Below are positions 12,922-24,441 of a stretch of 54,477 nt of DNA, in pieces (within the stretch, counting starts at the first letter, position 1; each line of letters starts with the position of its first letter). Below the pieces are notes generated by a model. It was not told the DNA's origin. It ran no database searches and was given only the letters and a program-made list of their open reading frames with translations. The DNA lies in contig CAMNHY010000007.1 in assembly GCA_946540005.1 (NCBI GenBank), positions 1-54,477 of the forward strand, written 5' to 3'. This stretch comes from an uncultured Clostridium sp. Lineage in GTDB: Bacteria; Bacillota_I; Bacilli_A; Acholeplasmatales; Anaeroplasmataceae. Made by a program: the position numbers and the translations under genes.

Positions 12922-13773
12922 TTACAAATCCAAAACTTTCTCAAAGTCAACATTCTTTAATTGAACCATGACTCTATTAAATTTTGTTTTTGTTAAAATC
13001 TTATTAATTTTTCTAATGTACTTATTTTTAATCTTAAGTACATTAAATGGTAGACCGCAATTAAGTGCTTCACAAAATTTACCAATTTTCTTATATACTT
13101 CTTCAAAAGAAGTGAAATAAACATTGTCATCTAATGATATTTTCACTAATTTACAGCCTGGTGGAATGATAGTACCATTGCTTAAATCAAGATCTAGACA
13201 TACATATGAATTTCTAGTTCCAGATTCTCCAACAAATAAATAATCAAGAGATTTATCTTCATAATTTTGTTCAATTTGTTCTTTATTTTCTAAATAAGCA
13301 TAGACTTTTTCTAAAGAATCAGAAGATATTCTCGGAATATTAACAAAATCATCATCAAATTTTTTCTTATAAGCATTCTTACAAATATTGAAGCAATTTA
13401 TTAATAATGATCTGTCAAACTTTGAAACATCCTCAAAATAAGGATTATAAACTACAAAGTCAAATTTCTCACAAAGTTCCTTAATAATATCAACGAGTCT
13501 ATTAACCTTATATGTATTTGATAATAATTCAAATTCAACATATAAATTAGTATCTAAGTATTTAGGATTTAATCTTTCAATTCTATCAATAACTGAATGA
13601 TTGCCCATAACAAAAACAGCATCAAAATCCAAAACTGAATCATGATAATATGCCTTCTTAACTTGGCCTTCTCCTTCAAACTTAATATACTTTTGTGCAC
13701 TCATATATGTTACAAATTCCGCACGATCATATACTCTTGTACCCTCTTTTAGAAAGTAATATTGAAACTTCAT
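12922..13773 (-). CDS. Hypothetical protein, unknown family
   Basis: 283 residues, not recognised. The sequence is soluble in character, with no membrane helix or signal peptide. It is rich in Lys, Asp, Tyr and Phe. Notable segments are FDAVFVMGNHSVIDRIERLNPKYL (a possible Rossmann-like strand-helix), FDFVVYNPYFEDVSKFDRSLL, and YLFVGESGTRNSYVCLDLDL. The alternation of strands and helices could fit a nuclease or NTPase-like alpha/beta fold, but no motif is convincing. It lies between surE and deoC in the ileS unit with gaps of 44 and 24 bases. An intact long frame in line with its neighbours makes it a real gene. Confidence 0.75.
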   Translation of the reverse strand: MKFQYYFLKEGTRVYDRAEFVTYMSAQKYIKFEGEGQVKKAYYHDSVLDFDAVFVMGNHSVIDRIERLNPKYLDTNLYVEFELLSNTYKVNRLVDIIKELCEKFDFVVYNPYFEDVSKFDRSLLINCFNICKNAYKKKFDDDFVNIPRISSDSLEKVYAYLENKEQIEQNYEDKSLDYLFVGESGTRNSYVCLDLDLSNGTIIPPGCKLVKISLDDNVYFTSFEEVYKKIGKFCEALNCGLPFNVLKIKNKYIRKINKILTKTKFNRVMVQLKNVDFEKVLDL

Positions 13774-13817: not shown

Positions 13818-14549
13818 CTATTTGTCAAAAAAATTAGCGATTTTTGACATATTTTTATAGTCTGTTCTATCAACTACGATAGGTGTAACAGTTATAATTC
13901 CTTTATATAAAAAGTATAAATCAGTATTTTTACCAATATTATTGTGGTAATATTGCTTATCAATATGATTAAATTTTGACAAAAATTCATATTTAGGTTC
14001 ATCTATATCTATCCCACTATTTAATGGTGCTACTACTATCTTGTCATAATTTATTACATGTGGGATATTAAAAGAATAAATAAAATCTTTAGAATATAAT
14101 TGATGTTTAAAAACTTTATCAAAAATAATATCTAATCCTTTATTTACAACCTCTTCGTCATAATCAACCTCACTAGATATAGCAATAGCAGGTATATTCA
14201 TATTAATAGCTTCACTTGCAGCACCAATTGTTCCACTATATTGAACATCTACACCTGCATTTAATCCATTATTAATACCTGAAATTACTAAATCTGGTAA
14301 TTTATTAAATTCTTTTAAATAATAATTAATTCCATCAGCAGGTGTACCTGGATGACTATACATAAATTCAGATACTTTAGTTAAGTGATTATCCTCATAT
14401 TCCCAATATCTTATTGCCTGGGAAATGCATGAATTATTCTTATCAGGAGCACAAACGATTACATTATGTCCTAATTTAGTAAGCTTATTAAAAAGTAATA
14501 GGATTAGCTTAGAGCTAATCCCATCATCATTAGTTATTAGAATTTCCAT
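13818..14549 (-). CDS. surE: 5'/3'-nucleotidase SurE
   Basis: 243 residues. The metal-binding N-terminus MEILITNDDGI (Asp8, Asp9), the HPGTPADGINYYL stretch, the SGINNGLNAG loop and YSGTIGAASEA are the defining SurE signatures. SurE dephosphorylates nucleoside monophosphates and is linked to stationary survival in E. coli. Its start lies 20 bases inside the 3' end of ileS, in another frame, so translation is probably coupled. Together with the downstream deoC and deoD it makes a small nucleotide/nucleoside breakdown group behind the isoleucine T-box. Confidence 0.94.
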   Translation of the reverse strand: MEILITNDDGISSKLILLLFNKLTKLGHNVIVCAPDKNNSCISQAIRYWEYEDNHLTKVSEFMYSHPGTPADGINYYLKEFNKLPDLVISGINNGLNAGVDVQYSGTIGAASEAINMNIPAIAISSEVDYDEEVVNKGLDIIFDKVFKHQLYSKDFIYSFNIPHVINYDKIVVAPLNSGIDIDEPKYEFLSKFNHIDKQYYHNNIGKNTDLYFLYKGIITVTPIVVDRTDYKNMSKIANFFDK

Positions 14550-17259
14550 AAATCTTATCTACAATCTTTTGACAACGAGGGCATAGACCATTTACAGTAA
14601 CAAAAGGTACAGTTGCACGACATCTTTCACAAACAACACCTTCTGCAGCACTAACTACAATGTCAAATTTATCTCCATCATTAAATTCAGTTTGAGATAC
14701 AATTAACATTTGTCCAATATTTGAATTTAATTTTTCGAATAATTCTTTTGCTTCTTTATCTAAAGTAAATGTAAGTTTAGCAGCAAATGATTTACCAATA
14801 ACCTTATTGCTTCTAGCTTCTTCTAATGCTTTTAATACTTGAGGACGATATTCATTCATGAATTTATCGAATGACTCTTCAATATCCTTGTAAGCACTAT
14901 AATCTTTTATACTTGGGAAATTCTCTAAATATACATCTTCTTCAGTATGGAATGGTAAGAAACTATATGCTTCACTTGCAGTATGTGGTACAAGTGGAGA
15001 AATAACAATAATTAAAGTCTTTACGATTTCATAGAATACAGTTTGAACTGAACGTCTAGCTGGATCGTTTGCTTCTTCAATATATAAGATATCCTTTGTG
15101 AAATCTAGATAGAAACTAGATAGATCGTTTACAACAAATGTATTGATTAATTTACAAACTTCATTAAATTGGAATTCATCATAAGCATTCTTTAAATCAC
15201 TTACAAATTTATTTAATTTAATAAGCATATATTTATCAACATTTGCTAAATTATCAAATGATACAGCATCTTTTTTAGGATCAAATCCATCAATATTAGC
15301 TAATAAGAATTTAATTGTGTTACGAATTTTTCTATATGAATCTGAAACTTGTTTTAATAGATCATCTGACATAACCATATCTGATCTAAAATCTACATTT
15401 GCAACCCATAAACGTAAAATATCAGCACCTTGAGTATTTGATACTTTAATTGGATCAACTGTATTACCTAATGACTTACTCATTTTTTGGCCTTTACCAT
15501 CAAGTGTAAATCCATGAGATAATACCTTCTTATATGGAGCAGTACCAAAATTAGCTACTGAAGTAATAATTGATGAATTAAACCAACCTCTATATTGGTC
15601 AGAACCTTCAAGATATAAATCAGCAGGGAATTTTAAACCTCTTCTTAAAAGAGTCATGTATGAAGAACCTGAATCAAACCATACATCCATGATATCAGTT
15701 TCTTTACGGAATTTACCATTTGGAGAATGTGAATTTGTATATCCTTCTGGTAATAAGTCTTTTGCATCTCTTCTATACCATTCAGTAGAACCATATTGTT
15801 CAAAAATCTTTGCAACATGTTCAATAACTTTTAAATCAAGAACTGGTTCACCATCTTCGCAGTAGAATACAGGAAGAGGAACACCCCAAGCTCTTTGACG
15901 AGAAATACACCAATCATGTCTTTCTTTAATCATATTACCAAGTCTAACTTCACCCCATACTGGGTCCCATTTAACACCATTATGAATTGCGTCTAAAATT
16001 TCATCCTTAATTGGGTCAATTGAAGCAAACCATTGTGCTGTAGCACGGAAAATAACTGGTTTCTTAGTTCTCCAGTCATGAGGATAGCTGTGAGTAATAG
16101 GGTCAAGTAATAATAATGAACCATTCTCTTTTAAATCTTCAATAATTGGATCTTCACTCTTTTCATAGAATAATCCAGCATATTTACCACTTTCTTTACC
16201 TTGTACACCATGGTCATCTACATAAACTAATACAGGTAAATTGTATTTCTTAGCAGCAACATAGTCATCTTCACCATAACCTGGTGCAATATGTACAAAA
16301 CCAGTACCATCACTGTCAGTAACATAATCAGCATTAATTACTAAAGATTCTCTATCATATAATGGGTGCTTAACATGTAAATACTCTAATTCATTACCTT
16401 GAATAGTTGCTAATTCAGTAACATCTTCTAAGCCTAATTTTGAAACTAATTTTTCAAGTAATGACTTAGCACAAACCATCTTACCTTTATTTGAATTAAA
16501 TACAACATATTCTAAATCTGGGTGTGCAGCTACCGCAACATTACATGGTAATGTCCATGGAGTAGTTGTCCAAACCATAATCTTAGCATTCTCAAGTACA
16601 CCCTTACCATCAAGTAAATTAAATGTAAAGAAAATAGCCTTTGAAGTAATATCTTTATATTCAATTTCAGCTTCAGCTAAAGCTGATTCTGATGATGGAG
16701 ACCAATAAACAGGCTTTAATCCTTTATAAATTAAACCTTTTTCAACCATCTTACCAAATACTCTAACTTGGTCTCTTTCAAATTCATGTTGTAAAGAAAT
16801 ATATGGATGTTCCCAATCAGCTTCAACTCCAAGTCTCTTGAAACCTTCCATTTGTTTTGCTACTTGTTCATGTGCATATTTATCGCACATATCTCTAAAG
16901 TCAGAAATAGCAACCTCTTTACGATTTACACCTTTCTTTTGAATAGCATTTTCAATTGGTAAACCATGTGTATCCCAACCTGGAATATATAATGAATAGA
17001 AACCATTCATATTCTTATATCTTACGATAAAATCTTTTAAAATTTTATTTAATGCGTGTCCTAAATGGATTGGTCCATTTGCATATGGTGGACCATCATG
17101 AATAGTATATTGTTCACACTTTTCATTTTTTTCTAATCTTTTAGCATAAATATTGTTCTTAGCCCATTGTTCTTGAATCTTTGGCTCTTTATTTGCTAAA
17201 TTAGCTCTCATTTCAAAGTCAGTATGACCAAGATTAACAGTATCTTTAAATTCAGACAT
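14530..17259 (-). CDS. ileS: Isoleucine--tRNA ligase
   Basis: 909 residues, typical of bacterial IleRS. The class I HIGH motif is HLGH (65-68) in NGPIHLGHALNK, and KMSKS appears as GQKMSKSLGN. The editing (CP1) domain shows VWTTTPWTLPCNVAVAAHPDLEY. The C-terminal zinc site is present: Cys877, Cys880, Cys893 and Cys896, as in the mupirocin-sensitive type found in most Gram-positives. It is preceded by AGGAGG and by an Ile-specific T-box leader (17273-17505), so expression should rise when tRNA-Ile is uncharged. Confidence 0.98.
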   Translation of the reverse strand: MSEFKDTVNLGHTDFEMRANLANKEPKIQEQWAKNNIYAKRLEKNEKCEQYTIHDGPPYANGPIHLGHALNKILKDFIVRYKNMNGFYSLYIPGWDTHGLPIENAIQKKGVNRKEVAISDFRDMCDKYAHEQVAKQMEGFKRLGVEADWEHPYISLQHEFERDQVRVFGKMVEKGLIYKGLKPVYWSPSSESALAEAEIEYKDITSKAIFFTFNLLDGKGVLENAKIMVWTTTPWTLPCNVAVAAHPDLEYVVFNSNKGKMVCAKSLLEKLVSKLGLEDVTELATIQGNELEYLHVKHPLYDRESLVINADYVTDSDGTGFVHIAPGYGEDDYVAAKKYNLPVLVYVDDHGVQGKESGKYAGLFYEKSEDPIIEDLKENGSLLLLDPITHSYPHDWRTKKPVIFRATAQWFASIDPIKDEILDAIHNGVKWDPVWGEVRLGNMIKERHDWCISRQRAWGVPLPVFYCEDGEPVLDLKVIEHVAKIFEQYGSTEWYRRDAKDLLPEGYTNSHSPNGKFRKETDIMDVWFDSGSSYMTLLRRGLKFPADLYLEGSDQYRGWFNSSIITSVANFGTAPYKKVLSHGFTLDGKGQKMSKSLGNTVDPIKVSNTQGADILRLWVANVDFRSDMVMSDDLLKQVSDSYRKIRNTIKFLLANIDGFDPKKDAVSFDNLANVDKYMLIKLNKFVSDLKNAYDEFQFNEVCKLINTFVVNDLSSFYLDFTKDILYIEEANDPARRSVQTVFYEIVKTLIIVISPLVPHTASEAYSFLPFHTEEDVYLENFPSIKDYSAYKDIEESFDKFMNEYRPQVLKALEEARSNKVIGKSFAAKLTFTLDKEAKELFEKLNSNIGQMLIVSQTEFNDGDKFDIVVSAAEGVVCERCRATVPFVTVNGLCPRCQKIVDKIYGNSNN

Positions 17260-17272
17260 AAATTCCTCCTAA

Positions 17273-17505
17273 TAAAAAAAGCGCCCTTTAAATAAAGGAC
17301 GCATAAAATCGTGTTACCACCTTTGTTCAATATTAAATAATATTGCACTCATTATCGTTAACGCCTGATTACGGACTATACTCTTCGTATAATCATCTCC
17401 ACAGTGATCTAAATATTAATTCATTCTAGCCTTTCACCATACGCTAGTCGCTTTTTTAACTACCTTAATATTCCGTCTGTTTCATAGATATTAAATACGT
17501 TTAAA
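17273..17505 (-). promoter_or_regulatory. T-box riboswitch leader of ileS, specifier AUC (Ile)
   Basis: The minus strand carries the T-box core AGGTGGTAACACG (17310-17322), followed by a terminator stem GCGTCCTTTA/TAAAGGGCGC (17281-17302) and a T run (17273-17280). Farther upstream, ACAG/CTGT and AATATTAA/TTAATATT pair to form a Stem I with an internal loop whose 3' side reads TAGATCA; the triplet ATC (17406-17408) followed by a purine is the expected isoleucine specifier. Uncharged tRNA-Ile binding here and at the T-box bulge would favour the antiterminator. Stem I is deduced by eye and may be refined. Confidence 0.92.
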
Positions 17506-17537: not shown

Positions 17538-17855
17538 CTAAATTTGTTGTAAGAAATCATTTAATGAACCATCTTCAAAATCACAATTTCTTGCAAACAA
17601 ATATGTTAATTCCTTAATTTTAATAGTCTTACCATTAATGGCGTAACAAGCTCCTGTAAAGAAAGCTAGGAATTTGTTACAAGCCATTAAATCTAATTTT
17701 GCAAAATTTAATACTAATGGATTACCATTTTTTAATTTATCAATTAAATTTGCAGCATATTGATCATTATCAACTAATTGTTCCATAATAATTCTATCTT
17801 TTGCTAGAACATAATTAGTTTCTTTTTCTTTATCTTCTTTATGAAATAGAGCCAT
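17538..17855 (-). CDS. sepF: Cell division protein SepF
   Basis: 105 residues from the ATG at 17853-17855 (MALFHKEDKEKETNY), favoured over an ATG at 17870 because GGAG lies eight bases before it, inside the jetC 3' end. The core NGNPLVLNFAKLD, then ACNKFLAFFTGACYAING, is the SepF dimerisation/FtsZ-binding fold. The usual N-terminal membrane-targeting amphipathic helix and long linker are reduced to about 30 residues, making this a short SepF (about 150 residues in Bacillus). In Bacillus, sepF and ileS lie in one cluster with ylmG, ylmH and divIVA between them; here those are absent. Starts 1 base after the jetC stop. Confidence 0.9.
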   Translation of the reverse strand: MALFHKEDKEKETNYVLAKDRIIMEQLVDNDQYAANLIDKLKNGNPLVLNFAKLDLMACNKFLAFFTGACYAINGKTIKIKELTYLFARNCDFEDGSLNDFLQQI

Positions 17856-17856
17856 A

Positions 17857-20800
17857 TTACATCTCCTCATTTACAAATTCAGATTGAGCTTTAGCATCTT
17901 CAATTTCATCTTTTGTAGTCATAGGAAGAGCTTGAGTCTTATTTCCACGACGGAATACAACAATAGTTGTATCTGTATAAGAACCTAAAATATTCATTCT
18001 TTGAGGTGGGCAAGCTAGGATAAATTGAAGTGGCATTTCTGTCATAAACTCCATCATAGATCTCATACGATTAGTATCCATCTTATCGAATACTTCATCT
18101 AACATAATAATTCCAATTGATGAACCATTTACATTTTGTGTATAGATACGAACAAATGAAGCTATCATTGCTACATAGAATGGAACTTGTGTTTCTCCAC
18201 CTGATTTTTCTCTAAATACTTTTGAATATAACATAGATTCACCATATTGGTTAGAAATCTTAATATCATAATCCATGTAAGTTCTATAATCTGTAAATTT
18301 ATTAAATGTTGTATTATCATCTAATGAATCACTTGCGATTGCAGTAAATAATTCATCTAATTGTTGAGTATATGTCTTTTCAAAACTTGTAGTAAATATA
18401 GATTGACCATCAACTACATCGTTAGATTTAAACATATCATAGAATCCACCATATTCCTTTGATTTAGGGAAAATAAATTCATAAGTATCATTACCAAATG
18501 GAATTTTAGATAATGTTTCATTTATCTTTGAAATCTCTGCTTCGGCAGTTGAAATATTGTTACGAAGTTTTGAAATAAAGTCTTCTTTAAAGATAATTTC
18601 AGCTGTTTCTCTTGCTTGACGTACTTTTGCCTCATATTTAACAAGTTCAGATTTTTGTAATTTATCAAGTTCATCTAAATAGTTTTGAATTTGATCTACA
18701 CCAACTGACAAGTTAGAATTGAACTCTTGAATATATTCACTTTCTTTATTTAAGATACCTGAACATAGATTTTCATATGTTTGTTCAGTTGATCTTAATC
18801 TAGCTTCACAAGATTTATAAGCACTCTCAATTGACATCTCTTCAATCATAGAATCATATTCTTTACGACAATCATTATCTAATGATAAATTATCATTTGC
18901 TAAATTAGCTAATACATTAGAAATATCTTCTAATTGTTTATCTAAATCAACAATAGATTGTCTTAAACTATCAATTCTTGTTGTTTGAGAACCAATTTGT
19001 TGAGAAATAGCAATTTTCTTTGCATCACAATCAGCGATTTGTTGCTTAACTTTATTATATTCATCTTGAGTTTCAGTAGTAGATAATTTCTTAGACTTAC
19101 TCTTTTCAAGAGTTAATTTTGAAATTCTATCACTTAATGAATAATAATTATTCAATGAATCAATTTCATTTATAAATTTATCTAATGATAAACTTTGAAT
19201 CTTTTGATTTTCATTTCTATAAGCTTCAATTTGATTAACTATCTCATAATATTGTGAAGATAGTTCACTAGCTTTTTCATCCCATTGAGCCTTTTGCTCA
19301 TCAACTGCACCAGAACCTATAAATCTTTGAACATTTAAGTTCATTGATCTTACAACATAACCTCTGTATAATAAACCATCATTTGTGATAGCGATTTGAT
19401 AATTCTTTAATTCTCCTTCGCTTTCACACATAATTACATTACCACATGTGAAGTTGATATAGTTTTGAGCATCTTTATTTTCACTTGACATAATTGATGC
19501 TAAGCTATTTGGCATATATTGATTATATTTTTGAATAGCTTCAGTATTTACAATACCAAATCCATGTGAATATTTATTTTTAATACGCGCAAAGATTTGT
19601 AATGCTGAATCATAATATCTAGGTTCAACAATTAAAATAAATTTTTGATTACCTAAGAATGATTCAATTGTTTTTGCCCAATTCTTATCTTTTATTTCGA
19701 TTAATTCGCAAAAAATATGAACAGAAACATCTTTATTATATAATCTCTTAAGATTTTCACTAATTTCAGTTCTTAATTCATTTAATCCTGCAGGATAATG
19801 TAATCTATTACTGTCAAGATTTTGTCTAGCTTCCTTAACAGTCTTCATTTCATCAATTACATCAGATTTTTGGCTATTTAAAGAACCAATTTCCTCAAGA
19901 TTACTATCAATAATTCTCTTAAATACTTGTTGATAATTAACAACTTTTAATTTAATGTCTTGTAACATTCTAACATCAGTATTATTAAGAGGAATATTAT
20001 AGAATTCATTATATTCTCTAATATCAGATTCTTGACGTAATGAATTAATTGTTTCTTTAATTTTAGAAGCATGTTGCAAATAAATATTTTCAGCATCTCC
20101 TAATGTTTCAATATCTCTTTGGCATTTTTCAATTTGTCTAGATAAATATTCACTATTTTTAAATCCTTCATCGTTTGATAGAGCGTCATATAGATTTTGA
20201 CTCTTTTCTTGTAATTCAGAAGTTAAATCATTTTGATGTTGAAGTTCCTCTTTAATAGCTTCTAATTTAGCTATTTCAATTTCAATTTGGTCAGAAATAT
20301 TTTGTTTATTTCCTTCAATCTTCTTTACATCAAATAATTTCATTAAATAATTAAGATAATTTTTCTTATCAATAATATCTTTAGCATTATCAACTAAAGC
20401 ACTTAATTCAGTTAATCTATCAATCTTTAATTGAATAACTTTAAGAGTTGATTCTAAGTCTTTAAATGATCTAATAGCATCTCTAATATTAGTTACATCA
20501 ATTTCTTTTTCTTCAAGTATATTTTGATAAATAAATTCCTTAACATCTGAAATAGGTTTAAATGCTAAAGCTTTAGTAATCATCTTGAAGAAATCTTCAT
20601 TAATTGAACCATATAAAGTTCTAAATGCTCTCTTAGCTTCTCTCTTAGTTGAATAATATGATAAGTCTCTATTCACTTTTCTAAATTCAACAGTAGAATA
20701 AACCTTACCGCTTAAATCAAAGAACATATTGTCTTCAATTCTTGTATTTTCAGCTGAATAGAATAAGAATTTAACTGGTGCTAATTCACCAAATGCATCT

Positions 20801-21129
20801 AATACTACACCAATGATAAAATATTGTTGAATTTTTTCATCATAGAATTCTAGTGCTATATCACCAGATACATCACCATCTCTTAAATATTCCTTATCTT
20901 CTATACCAAGTTTACACTTAATATAACCTCTAAGATCACGCTTACCTTTTTCGTTTGCAGCAAGGTTAAATGTTGTTTCACCTGCAGTTAATACATAAGT
21001 TAAAGCGTCAAGAATTGTTGATTTACCAGAAGCATTTGCACCTGTTAATAAAACATTATTTTTAATTTCGATTGTTTCATTAGAGATGTAGTGCCAGTTT
21101 ACAAGTCTAATTTTAGTTAGCTTTTTCAT
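17857..21129 (-). CDS. jetC: SMC-like ATPase, JetC/MksB-type subunit
   Basis: 1090 residues. The N-terminal ABC half has Walker A GANASGKST (30-38). Long coiled-coil arms (about 230-430 and 640-870, rich in Glu, Lys, Gln and Leu) flank a hinge-like centre around IKDKNWAKTIESFLGNQKF. The C-terminal half has the ABC signature KSGGETQ (976 onward) and Walker B IIMLDE (1007-1012) with a D-loop. This is the COG4913-type SMC-like ATPase of Wadjet (JetC) and MksB complexes, which load and extrude DNA loops. It overlaps jetB by 17 bases. The partner nuclease JetD is not seen on either side, so a role in chromosome organisation is at least as likely as plasmid defence. Confidence 0.88.
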   Translation of the reverse strand: MKKLTKIRLVNWHYISNETIEIKNNVLLTGANASGKSTILDALTYVLTAGETTFNLAANEKGKRDLRGYIKCKLGIEDKEYLRDGDVSGDIALEFYDEKIQQYFIIGVVLDAFGELAPVKFLFYSAENTRIEDNMFFDLSGKVYSTVEFRKVNRDLSYYSTKREAKRAFRTLYGSINEDFFKMITKALAFKPISDVKEFIYQNILEEKEIDVTNIRDAIRSFKDLESTLKVIQLKIDRLTELSALVDNAKDIIDKKNYLNYLMKLFDVKKIEGNKQNISDQIEIEIAKLEAIKEELQHQNDLTSELQEKSQNLYDALSNDEGFKNSEYLSRQIEKCQRDIETLGDAENIYLQHASKIKETINSLRQESDIREYNEFYNIPLNNTDVRMLQDIKLKVVNYQQVFKRIIDSNLEEIGSLNSQKSDVIDEMKTVKEARQNLDSNRLHYPAGLNELRTEISENLKRLYNKDVSVHIFCELIEIKDKNWAKTIESFLGNQKFILIVEPRYYDSALQIFARIKNKYSHGFGIVNTEAIQKYNQYMPNSLASIMSSENKDAQNYINFTCGNVIMCESEGELKNYQIAITNDGLLYRGYVVRSMNLNVQRFIGSGAVDEQKAQWDEKASELSSQYYEIVNQIEAYRNENQKIQSLSLDKFINEIDSLNNYYSLSDRISKLTLEKSKSKKLSTTETQDEYNKVKQQIADCDAKKIAISQQIGSQTTRIDSLRQSIVDLDKQLEDISNVLANLANDNLSLDNDCRKEYDSMIEEMSIESAYKSCEARLRSTEQTYENLCSGILNKESEYIQEFNSNLSVGVDQIQNYLDELDKLQKSELVKYEAKVRQARETAEIIFKEDFISKLRNNISTAEAEISKINETLSKIPFGNDTYEFIFPKSKEYGGFYDMFKSNDVVDGQSIFTTSFEKTYTQQLDELFTAIASDSLDDNTTFNKFTDYRTYMDYDIKISNQYGESMLYSKVFREKSGGETQVPFYVAMIASFVRIYTQNVNGSSIGIIMLDEVFDKMDTNRMRSMMEFMTEMPLQFILACPPQRMNILGSYTDTTIVVFRRGNKTQALPMTTKDEIEDAKAQSEFVNEEM

Positions 21130-21712
21130 GTTCTACCTCCCCAATAATATTTGAAATTGCTGCATCAACTTCATTAATATCAGAAACCTTAATAGCTTGA
21201 AGAATTGTAGGCATTAAGACAACTTTTGTATTTGCAACTAATGCATCCTTTAATCCTATTACTTCAATAAGATTATATTTTCTAAATGTTCTTAAAGCTT
21301 TAACTAAATCTGTTTTATTAATTCTTTGCTTAATTTCTAAATAATTATATTTATTTTGAATATCTTCAACATTAATAACAATATTACTATTTAAAGTTGT
21401 TTCTTTTAATCTTTCACTATATAAAAGTCTTAAAATTAATAATACAACAGTATTATCTCTATTTAATTTTAGTACATTAGAATTATTATCACTAGATAAC
21501 ATAATAGTTCCTAATGCTTGATCTATTTCTATTTCATAGCCTAAAATTGAAAAGAATTCTTCAAATAAGCTTTGAAATGATACAACAAAATAATAGTCTT
21601 CTTTATTATCTTCTTTATCACGAGCTAAAAATGTATATGAAATTAATTTATTAGCACATTCTCTAAATGTATTCTTTTGACTAACATTTAATGATTGATA
21701 ACCATCTAACAT
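21113..21712 (-). CDS. jetB: DUF4194 protein, JetB/MksE-type winged-helix subunit
   Basis: 199 residues. The layout is a small helical start, a central strand-turn region, and a C-terminal winged-helix-like part with QRINKTDLVKALRTFRKYNLIEVI. This corresponds to the KITE subunit (MksE, JetB; DUF4194) of condensin-like complexes, which binds the kleisin between the two ATPase heads. The assignment rests on the sequence pattern and strongly on its place between jetA and jetC, where spacing is 1 base before and a 17-base overlap after. No catalytic motif is expected or seen. Confidence 0.82.
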   Translation of the reverse strand: MLDGYQSLNVSQKNTFRECANKLISYTFLARDKEDNKEDYYFVVSFQSLFEEFFSILGYEIEIDQALGTIMLSSDNNSNVLKLNRDNTVVLLILRLLYSERLKETTLNSNIVINVEDIQNKYNYLEIKQRINKTDLVKALRTFRKYNLIEVIGLKDALVANTKVVLMPTILQAIKVSDINEVDAAISNIIGEVEHEKAN

Positions 21713-21713
21713 A

Positions 21714-23156
21714 TTACTTTTCCTCCTTTAGCAAGAAATCATGCATTGAGAATTTTTCATGATTAATTTTATTCTCAAGCTTAACAAGTTCAAAGTTATT
21801 TTCACTGCCATATACTAATGCATATAAACACATAACAACAACATCTACACTTGTATCATAATGGATTACATCACTAGCTCTAAATTCTCCTTCAATCATA
21901 TGCGAATATAAGAAATCTTTGATTGCATCATCATTAAATGGATTCTCATATGTTTTTAAGAATTCTTCAGTTTCACTAGTTAAATCAAATCTTGATAAAT
22001 CAACATATTGTCCTTGTACTCTTTCGTATTTACCACGAGGAGTATATAATGATTTTTCAGATCTAAACATCTTATTTTCTCTAAGTTTAAATAAATCATT
22101 AACTTTATTAATTGCTTTATCAATATGATTGTTTTTATTTTCAACTTTAATATATTTTAAAATATTGTTTAATTTACCAACAATATTTTCATCTTCAGAT
22201 AATAAGAATTTAATCTTACCAATTGTAGAATCAATATATTTGCTGTTCTTTTTATCAATTTCTGTAACAAATGCATCTAATTCATTAAATACATCAATCA
22301 TTTCATCAATATCCTTATAAGCTCTCTTATATGCTACTTCCATTTTAGGATATCTCTTTAAATAATTATCAACAACTTTATACATTATAGCTTCATTAGA
22401 CTCGATGTTTTCTAAATTAGTAACAATGCTTAATCTATATTTATTAATGTTATCTCCAGTTTTTAATTGCTTGTATCCATTATCAACAAGTTCAACTTTA
22501 TAATTCATTAATCTTTCAATTAAATTATGAACATCTGTATTATTAACAACGGATTCAATATAATCCTTCATTCTACTGTCAAGTTTTCTTAAAGCTCTAA
22601 TTAATAATTTAGTATTTCTATATACTTCAGTTATAGTTAGACCATAATCTAAGCTGTCAGAATTTAATAATGTATAAATTGTATAAATGTAACCATTATA
22701 TTCATTTGAATTAATTTCTATAAATGAATCATCCCATTCATCAGGATTAAATTCAAATGATTCATTTGCCCATGGGGTCAAATTCATAATGGCTTCTACC
22801 ATTGTAATACCTACATCAGTAAAATTTAAAATTTCTTCATAATCACTTGTAACATCTATATAAATCCATCCTGTTTGTTCAAAACGACGCAAAATAAAAT
22901 AAGCTAAACTTCTTTTAGATTCTTTAGCTTCTTGTTCATCCTCGTCTTCATTAACATCTTCTTCATCAGTAAATGATAAATCAGAATGTTCAAGATAATC
23001 TGTTAATTCATCTACAACAACTTTCTTATCAATTCCAAGAATTGATCCCATCTCATAGATTTTAAAAGATTTAATTAAACAAGCAAGATAGAGACGTTTG
23101 TTCTTACCACTAAGTAAAGAGAAAAAGTTCTCAGGTATAATATCAAACAAATCCAT
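21714..23156 (-). CDS. jetA: JetA/MksF-type kleisin subunit (DUF5716-like)
   Basis: 480 residues. It begins MDLFDIIPENFFSLLSGKNK, the typical start of the JetA group annotated as DUF5716. An acidic insert at about 62-80 (DEEDVNEDEDEQE) is followed by the helical FILRRFEQTGWIYIDV and a mainly helical middle. A C-terminal winged-helix-like end follows EEFLKTYENPFNDDAIKDFL. Kleisins bridge the SMC heads and hold the KITE dimer. It leads the jetABC-sepF unit with its own promoter at 23186-23214. Sequence divergence in this family is high, so the name is by family pattern and gene order. Confidence 0.82.
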   Translation of the reverse strand: MDLFDIIPENFFSLLSGKNKRLYLACLIKSFKIYEMGSILGIDKKVVVDELTDYLEHSDLSFTDEEDVNEDEDEQEAKESKRSLAYFILRRFEQTGWIYIDVTSDYEEILNFTDVGITMVEAIMNLTPWANESFEFNPDEWDDSFIEINSNEYNGYIYTIYTLLNSDSLDYGLTITEVYRNTKLLIRALRKLDSRMKDYIESVVNNTDVHNLIERLMNYKVELVDNGYKQLKTGDNINKYRLSIVTNLENIESNEAIMYKVVDNYLKRYPKMEVAYKRAYKDIDEMIDVFNELDAFVTEIDKKNSKYIDSTIGKIKFLLSEDENIVGKLNNILKYIKVENKNNHIDKAINKVNDLFKLRENKMFRSEKSLYTPRGKYERVQGQYVDLSRFDLTSETEEFLKTYENPFNDDAIKDFLYSHMIEGEFRASDVIHYDTSVDVVVMCLYALVYGSENNFELVKLENKINHEKFSMHDFLLKEEK

Positions 23157-23185: not shown

Positions 23186-23214
23186 ATAATAGCAAAAAAC
23201 GACATTTTTTTCAA
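23186..23214 (-). promoter_or_regulatory. Promoter of jetABC-sepF
   Basis: Minus-strand TTGAAA (23209-23214), 17-base spacer, TATTAT (23186-23191), about 30 bases ahead of the jetA ATG, which has AAAGGAG. Confidence 0.75.
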
Positions 23215-23340: not shown

Positions 23341-24441
23341 CTAAACATTAAACTTGAATAACATTATATCTCCATCTTGGACGATATAATCTTTACCTTC
23401 TTGTCTAACCTTACCAGCTTCTTTAACCTTTTGCATATTACCATATTCTTCTAAATCTTTAAATGCACAAGTTTCAGCTCTAATAAATCCTCTTTCAAAG
23501 TCAGTGTGAATAATACCAGCACATTGAGGAGCTGTCATTCCTCTACGGAATGTCCAAGCCTTAACCTCTTTTTCACCTGCTGTGAAATAAGTAGCATAAC
23601 CTAATAAAGAATAAGTTTCTCTAATTAAAACATTTAATCCAGCTTCAGGAATACCCATTTCATTTAGGAAGGCATCTCTCTCTTCATCTGATAATTGAGC
23701 ACATTCAGATTCAATTTCAGCAGAAATAGGAACAACTTTAGCTCCTTCTTTTGTAGCATATTCTACTAATTGATTATAATAAGAAACGCTAGTAGGATCT
23801 GCTATATCAGAATCTGCTAAATTAGCTACATACATAATAGGTTTTTGAGTTAATAAAGCATAACGCTTTATATAAGGCATTTCAATTTCTTCAAATGATA
23901 ATGCTCTAACAGGTTTACCCTCTTCAAGATGCTTCTTTATTTTTGTTAATAAAGCATACTCAAGAGGTGCATCATCAACTTTAGATTGAGCCTTCTTTTC
24001 AATCTTAGGAATACGTGTATTAATGACATCTAAATCTGATAATATTAATTCCATATTTATAGTTTCAACATCTCTTACAGGATCAACTGAACCTTCAACA
24101 TGAATAATATTTGCATCATCAAAGCAACGTACTACTTCAATAATTGCATCACAATTTCTTATATTTGCAAGGAATTGGTTACCAAGACCTTCTCCTTTTG
24201 AAGCTCCTTTAACTAAACCAGCAATATCTGTAAATTCGCATACTGCAGGAACTAAACTCTTTGGATGATATATTTCATTTAATTTTTCTAATCTCTTATC
24301 AGGCACTTCTACAACACCAACATTTGGGTCAATAGTTGCAAATGGATAATTTGCTGCAAGTACTCCTGATTTAGTAATTGCGTTAAAAAGTGTTGACTTA
24401 CCAACATTAGGAAGTCCAACAATACCAGCTGTTAAAGCCAT
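23341..24441 (-). CDS. ychF: Redox-regulated ATPase YchF (OLA1 family)
   Basis: 366 residues, exact family length. Walker A is GLPNVGKST (9-17), followed by the G3 [20 protein letters not shown] and NLADSD in place of the G4 NKxD, which is the reason YchF/OLA1 prefers ATP. The C-terminal TGS-like domain reads [29 protein letters not shown]. It binds ribosomes and is conserved in all domains; its role is linked to translation and stress response. AAGGAGGAATG precedes the ATG. A promoter with an extended -10 is at 24471-24499. Confidence 0.97.

Follow-up and report, generated by a model that had tools for sequence, protein, structure and literature searches.

A type I Wadjet operon without jetD as the probable chromosomal condensin of Anaeroplasma and Acholeplasma relatives

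In type I Wadjet systems the JetABC complex has been modelled as a loop-extruding motor, and the meeting of its two halves around a circle as the event that triggers the nuclease JetD (PMC10586767). The question raised by the locus described here is what such a motor does when the nuclease is missing. The window (the whole stretch analysed, 54,477 nucleotides of contig CAMNHY010000007.1, from an uncultured Clostridium sp. of the family Anaeroplasmataceae) carries a jetABC operon that spans positions 17857-23156 of the minus strand, exactly as given in a first-pass annotation, and that is followed not by jetD but by the cell-division gene sepF. That annotation recognised in the three genes the kleisin, KITE and SMC-like subunits of a Wadjet-type complex, and proposed that the complex is fixed in a core locus and may work as a chromosomal condensin. 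Both proposals hold up in the present analysis, the second as a reading of function. The jetABC-sepF genes form a core operon for a disarmed Wadjet, which is probably the resident chromosomal condensin of lineages where Smc-ScpAB has been lost. The takeover of chromosome folding most likely extends over the wall-less Anaeroplasma, Acholeplasma and several related families.

Subunits of the complex and absence of the nuclease

JetA, JetB and JetC belong to the type I Wadjet families according to both curated and PADLOC models (Table 1) and are encoded in one operon. The JetC profile aligns over its full length with the solved JetC of E. coli GF4-3 (8as8, 4e-47) and also with JetC of P. aeruginosa PA14, whereas MukB (1482 aa, against 1090 aa for JetC) is aligned only in the C-terminal head and belongs to a different sequence family. 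Since a sequence search of the PDB with the JetA and JetB profiles found no solved relative, the folds of these two proteins were predicted. The AlphaFold model of JetA (mean predicted local distance difference test, pLDDT, 75) matches the kleisins MukF (9gm7_C) and E. coli JetA (8q72_E); its TM-scores are low, which the flexibility and several domains of a kleisin lead one to expect, and it is the ranking, not the superposition, that counts as evidence. The JetB model (mean pLDDT 87) matches the KITE proteins JetB (8as8_C, E 1.5e-8) and MukE. In JetC the residues G30, N32, G35, K36, S37 and T38 (Walker A), S976-E979 (the SGGE signature) and D1011 and E1012 (Walker B) are invariant in the alignment, and the three patterns are intact in 93 of 94 long JetC sequences. 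The sole exception is L168 (9097-12357, genome G152, family f17), a very divergent JetC relative whose membership is doubtful. The complex of the window has therefore the composition of a condensin: an SMC ATPase with intact motifs, a kleisin and a KITE protein. It is not an Smc (44.7 bits with TIGR02168, cut-off 567), and JetB stays under the cut-off of the MksE model (PF21980, 23.4 bits against 27); the MksB and MksF families were approached solely through the PADLOC Jet models.

A jetD gene next to jetC is the mark of type I Wadjet, and it is lacking here; a jetD remnant between jetC and sepF was ruled out, as the 1-base gap leaves no room for it. A family-model search detected no jetD in the rest of the genome either, although this assembly (926 kb, 34 contigs) is only 75.7% complete, so that its absences alone mean little and the argument rests on relatives. 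Among 60 genomes of the order, JetA was found in 50 and JetD in 6. A jetABCD locus is present in five of the six: as a second, divergent copy in G005, G022, G025 and G028, and as the only copy in G045 (family f5). A type III restriction system adjoins a JetD-linked locus in f5. In the sixth genome (G013) the JetD homologue (L084, 947-2209) lies on a separate contig, with no jetABC beside it and with an upstream gene lacking a PADLOC match. Wherever JetD was found with jetC, it is directly 3' of it. Genuine jetD-bearing Wadjet loci thus share some genomes with the core operon, as separate, patchy and divergent copies, and the strict co-occurrence of JetD with jetABC that would speak for a defence system is not seen. 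Related to these second copies, Anaeroplasma bactoclasticum has an intact core jetABC plus a broken one (L083, 3170-5790), in which jetC is truncated to 214 aa and jetD was not found. The motif IFDR at the JetB N-terminus, a contact with JetD (PMC10586767), was considered as a marker of disarming and discarded as uninformative, because it is also absent from the JetD-linked JetB proteins examined.

Fixation in the family and loss of Smc

The closest named relatives of the locus are genomes of Anaeroplasmataceae or rumen 'Acholeplasmatales', including the type strain Anaeroplasma bactoclasticum ATCC 27112. The operon, tracked through JetA, is present in 35 of the 36 genomes of the window's family, the exception being 72% complete. 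Throughout the family, jetC adjoins sepF in all loci whose sequence reaches far enough. For 36 of 37 loci the gap between the two genes, measured from the first possible sepF start, is between -26 and +10 bases; some of the loci are one genome counted twice. The synteny is thus retained through the family, the neighbours are conserved and the JetC tree of the JetD-less set is structured by family, none of which fits the patchy, mobile distribution of Wadjet loci. Only in this family does jetC adjoin sepF; elsewhere JetD-less JetABC has other neighbours. The ratio of nonsynonymous to synonymous substitutions (dN/dS) is 0.01-0.17 for jetA, jetB and jetC in close pairs of the family and 0.02-0.04 for two Acholeplasma genomes; a pair including the window gives 0.19-0.31 at dS near 1, being more diverged and less reliable. 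The three genes are under strong purifying selection.

Smc was not found above its model cut-off in any of the 60 genomes of the order, 44 of which are at least 90% complete, whereas 10 of 14 controls were positive. In a survey of the class with five models (257 genomes, all at least 90% complete except for the added genome of the window), Smc was detected in 120 and ScpB in 121, fast-evolving mycoplasmas included, and ScpB tracks Smc; ScpB was not found in the survey genomes that belong to the order. Smc or ScpB is present in 123 genomes, JetA or JetC in 71, and neither system in 73. JetABC without JetD occurs in 60 genomes, of which 57 are also without Smc and ScpB and 3 have one or the other. 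JetD is present in 7 of 10 genomes that combine JetABC with Smc or ScpB, against 4 of 61 that have JetABC and neither of those two; JetD was counted at E < 1e-15, which excludes weaker JetD_C matches in other genomes. The Fisher p values for these class associations (2.5e-5 and 4e-16) take no account of shared ancestry and are not independent evidence. The pattern is also shown by the cultured Acholeplasma laidlawii PG-8A (G054), a single complete contig of 1,496,992 bases in which JetABC is present and JetD, Smc and ScpB were not found. JetABC is accordingly a lineage-fixed complex, and the only SMC complex detected, in the window's family and in Acholeplasma; the families f5, f9, f16 and f19 are counted as being without it.

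The JetC tree (75 rows) places the window's family together with f2, f4, f23 and f24 in a clade of 32 rows that is wholly JetD-less (support 100) and outside of which the JetD-linked copies from the window's family lie. Further JetD-less clades are formed by Acholeplasmataceae, by f21 with part of f11, and by f7. A single origin of all JetD-less JetC was rejected by the approximately unbiased (AU) test (p = 5e-9), as was the joining of the Acholeplasmataceae JetC to the window's clade (p = 2e-6), under a simple LG+G4 model and with long branches present. On these trees disarming appears to have been repeated, the existence of more than one JetD-less origin being firmer than their number; regain of JetD in some branches may be the alternative to repeated loss. 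In an RpoB tree of 28 genomes (one gene, one representative for most families, f2 and f14 left out) there are two Smc-less clades: i) f1, f3, f4, f5, f7, f9, f16, f19, f23 and f24 (support 99), with the Smc-bearing f12 and f15 as sister, and ii) f21 with f11 (support 100), next to the Smc-bearing f17 and f22. Both contain JetD-less JetABC. That Wadjet was repeatedly disarmed and co-opted as a chromosomal condensin, by two or more Bacilli/Mollicutes lineages that lost Smc-ScpAB independently, is a proposal for which we see the chances as even.

Role of the complex and points against it

Without the JetD nuclease, JetABC would still extrude DNA loops, and the motor would reorganise DNA harmlessly. 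In a cell lacking Smc the chromosome would be its main substrate, and loop extrusion could compact it and separate the sister chromosomes. Coupling to sepF would co-express the complex with the division machinery; any closer link with SepF is conjectural. The step from being able to extrude to organising this chromosome is supported by analogy with MksBEF of Pseudomonas aeruginosa, the nearest precedent: a nuclease-free SMC-like complex (no MksG) of the same superfamily that acts on the chromosome. That MksBEF lost its nuclease and took over chromosomal tasks is known or suspected. The Pseudomonas complex coexists with Smc-ScpAB, however, whereas JetABC is here the only one detected. The lineage-wide replacement of Smc-ScpAB has its parallel in enterobacterial MukBEF, another SMC-like complex with kleisin and KITE subunits (PMC10586767), and MukF and MukE resemble the predicted models of JetA and JetB. 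On the other hand, MksBEFG of Corynebacterium glutamicum, of the same superfamily, retains the nuclease MksG and has plasmids as its target; the chromosome, on which it does not act, is organised there by Smc-ScpAB (PMC7083940). Type I Wadjet of E. coli GF4-3 and P. aeruginosa PA14 shares gene order as well as protein families with the window operon, which differs from it in lacking jetD and in being fixed in a housekeeping locus. The function expected of JetABC is that of Smc-ScpAB in Bacillus.

Several observations weigh against this role. The 73 class genomes in which neither system was recognised, many of them nearly complete, imply that loss of Smc does not force the retention of JetABC and that replacement is not obligatory. 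They comprise families f5, f9, f16 and f19, a large part of f11, and the Acholeplasmataceae genus g23 (genomes of 0.7-0.9 Mb), which we infer from size and position to be phytoplasma, and include the single-contig G049 and G070 as well as G039, G042, G047 and G063; one of the 73, G265, gave zero matches, as if masked or faulty. Two further models revealed no condensin-type protein in them, the matches of PF02463 having the size of RecF, RecN or ABC transporters and those of PF13558 mostly that of RecF or SbcC. Either these genomes use something unrecognised or small genomes manage without a condensin. They weaken the claim that JetABC had to replace Smc, but not the claim that it is the only SMC complex detected in the window's family and Acholeplasma. 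Besides, JetD-less JetABC also occurs in Smc-bearing genomes, namely G066, G103 and G152, which have no JetD, and G095 and G111, which have it in addition to a jetABCD copy. In the f12 genomes G103 (C1), G066 (C18) and G095 (C5) the JetD-less jetABC (L164, L165 and L166, respectively) lies 16-24 kb from smc, perhaps the state before Smc loss; the neighbours of jetABC are alike in G103 and G095. The association between JetABC and missing Smc rests, by the RpoB tree, on about two independent losses. Finally, a JetD too diverged for the model may be encoded elsewhere.

This last point leads to the rival that survives best, yet is unlikely: that JetABC keeps up plasmid defence through a nuclease encoded elsewhere or through a JetD diverged beyond detection. 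Family models assign each of the three proteins to type I Wadjet, and JetD does occur in a few genomes of the window's family. Nevertheless, JetD is missing from complete and near-complete JetABC genomes, although the same model did find it in loci where jetD follows jetC. Moreover, the flanks vary between families and consist of ordinary housekeeping genes (dnaK-dnaJ and rsmE in f24, groEL in f4, a DEAD-box helicase and ptsI in Acholeplasma, glgC in f11), and no substitute effector gene common to the inspected JetD-less loci was found.

It is quite unlikely that JetABC has an accessory role, be it DNA repair or the coordination of division with SepF, while these small genomes fold without a condensin. 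The tight coupling to sepF in the window's family suits such a role, and so do the 73 genomes living without a recognised condensin; as the link to sepF exists in this family only, SepF cannot be a general partner of JetABC, and that idea was dropped. About as unlikely is defence without a nuclease, in which JetABC would bind and extrude small circular DNA and silence or missegregate it, even though in published models JetABC alone uses extrusion to sense how large a circle is (PMC10586767). Defence genes are not expected to be fixed across a family, vertically inherited and set among housekeeping genes. Separate JetD-linked copies exist in this very family, A. bactoclasticum has a related second copy in decay, and the absence of Smc would stay unexplained. 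That Smc and ScpAB are present but were missed, JetABC being an extra, is highly improbable in spite of the incomplete window genome, given the 44 genomes of the order that are at least 90% complete, the detection of both proteins elsewhere in the class by the same models, even in mycoplasmas, and the complete contig of A. laidlawii.

A chromosomal role of JetABC bears on how such complexes arise. Chromosome organisers such as MukBEF descend, according to a published speculation, from defence SMC complexes (PMC10586767). In MukBEF and MksBEF themselves divergence has gone too far for that step to be visible; here it may be read in type I JetABC without JetD, in lineages without Smc, with relatives that still have a JetD-linked copy. 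If the reading is right, these would be living examples of the route by which MukBEF and MksBEF have been proposed to originate. As A. laidlawii is cultured and JetABC is its only detectable SMC complex, a Wadjet motor running a chromosome is directly testable. While the parts are already known, what appears to be new is an entire family, and Acholeplasma besides, in which a type I Wadjet core is the one SMC complex that can be detected: no such report was found in the literature on Acholeplasma with SMC, condensin, MukB or Wadjet, a search mostly outside subscription journals, where one may exist. Defence-gene callers may label these core genes as incomplete Wadjet, and the survey exposes several bacterial families without a recognisable condensin.

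Organisation of the locus and other features

The order of the neighbouring genes noted in the first-pass annotation (sepF and then ileS after jetC, ychF upstream) agrees with the open reading frame (ORF) coordinates (Table 1).

Table 1. Features of the jetABC-sepF locus, in window positions
Feature	Position	Strand	Basis
jetA, kleisin subunit	21714-23156	minus	480 aa; PF18982 243 bits, PADLOC JetA1 378 bits, AlphaFold model
jetB, KITE subunit	21113-21712	minus	199 aa; PF13835 89 bits, PADLOC JetB1 189 bits, AlphaFold model
jetC, SMC-like ATPase	17857-21129	minus	1090 aa; PADLOC JetC1 1004 bits
sepF, probable translationally coupled fourth operon gene	17538-17855	minus	PF04472 40.5 bits (cut-off 27), junction sequence, family-wide adjacency
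ileS, conserved downstream neighbour	14530-17259	minus	ORF list, synteny
ychF, conserved upstream neighbour	23341-24441	minus	ORF list, synteny
Candidate promoter TTGAAA-17-TATTAT, TG preceding the second hexamer	23186-23214	minus	30 bases before the jetA start; consensus match
Candidate intrinsic terminator between sepF and ileS	17281-17302	minus	9-pair stem, 5 G-C pairs, T run

The genes of the operon are tightly packed: a single base lies between jetA and jetB, jetC shares 17 bases with jetB, and 1 base separates the jetC stop codon (17859-17857) from the sepF ATG (17855), whose ribosome-binding site (GAGGAG) lies within the 3' end of jetC. From this arrangement, a sepF start at 17855 (105 aa) is more likely than the one set by the ORF caller at 17870. 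The candidate jetA promoter is followed by an AAAGGAG ribosome-binding site; its position is suggestive only, and in a consensus scan of the region promoter matches were no commoner than in shuffled sequence. No ORF of at least 80 aa was found between sepF and ileS, and the ylmG, ylmH and divIVA genes of the Bacillus cluster are therefore absent from that interval.

Two observations concern other parts of the window. A 283-aa protein encoded at 12922-13773 has no Pfam or NCBIfam match and is kept near ileS and deoC in relatives (L041, L058, L092 and L104). At the contig end (54220-54477) three identical tandem tRNA-Gly genes, 92 bases apart, run off the end of the sequence and may represent a collapsed repeat; their anticodon, ACC, is an unusual one for glycine in bacteria.
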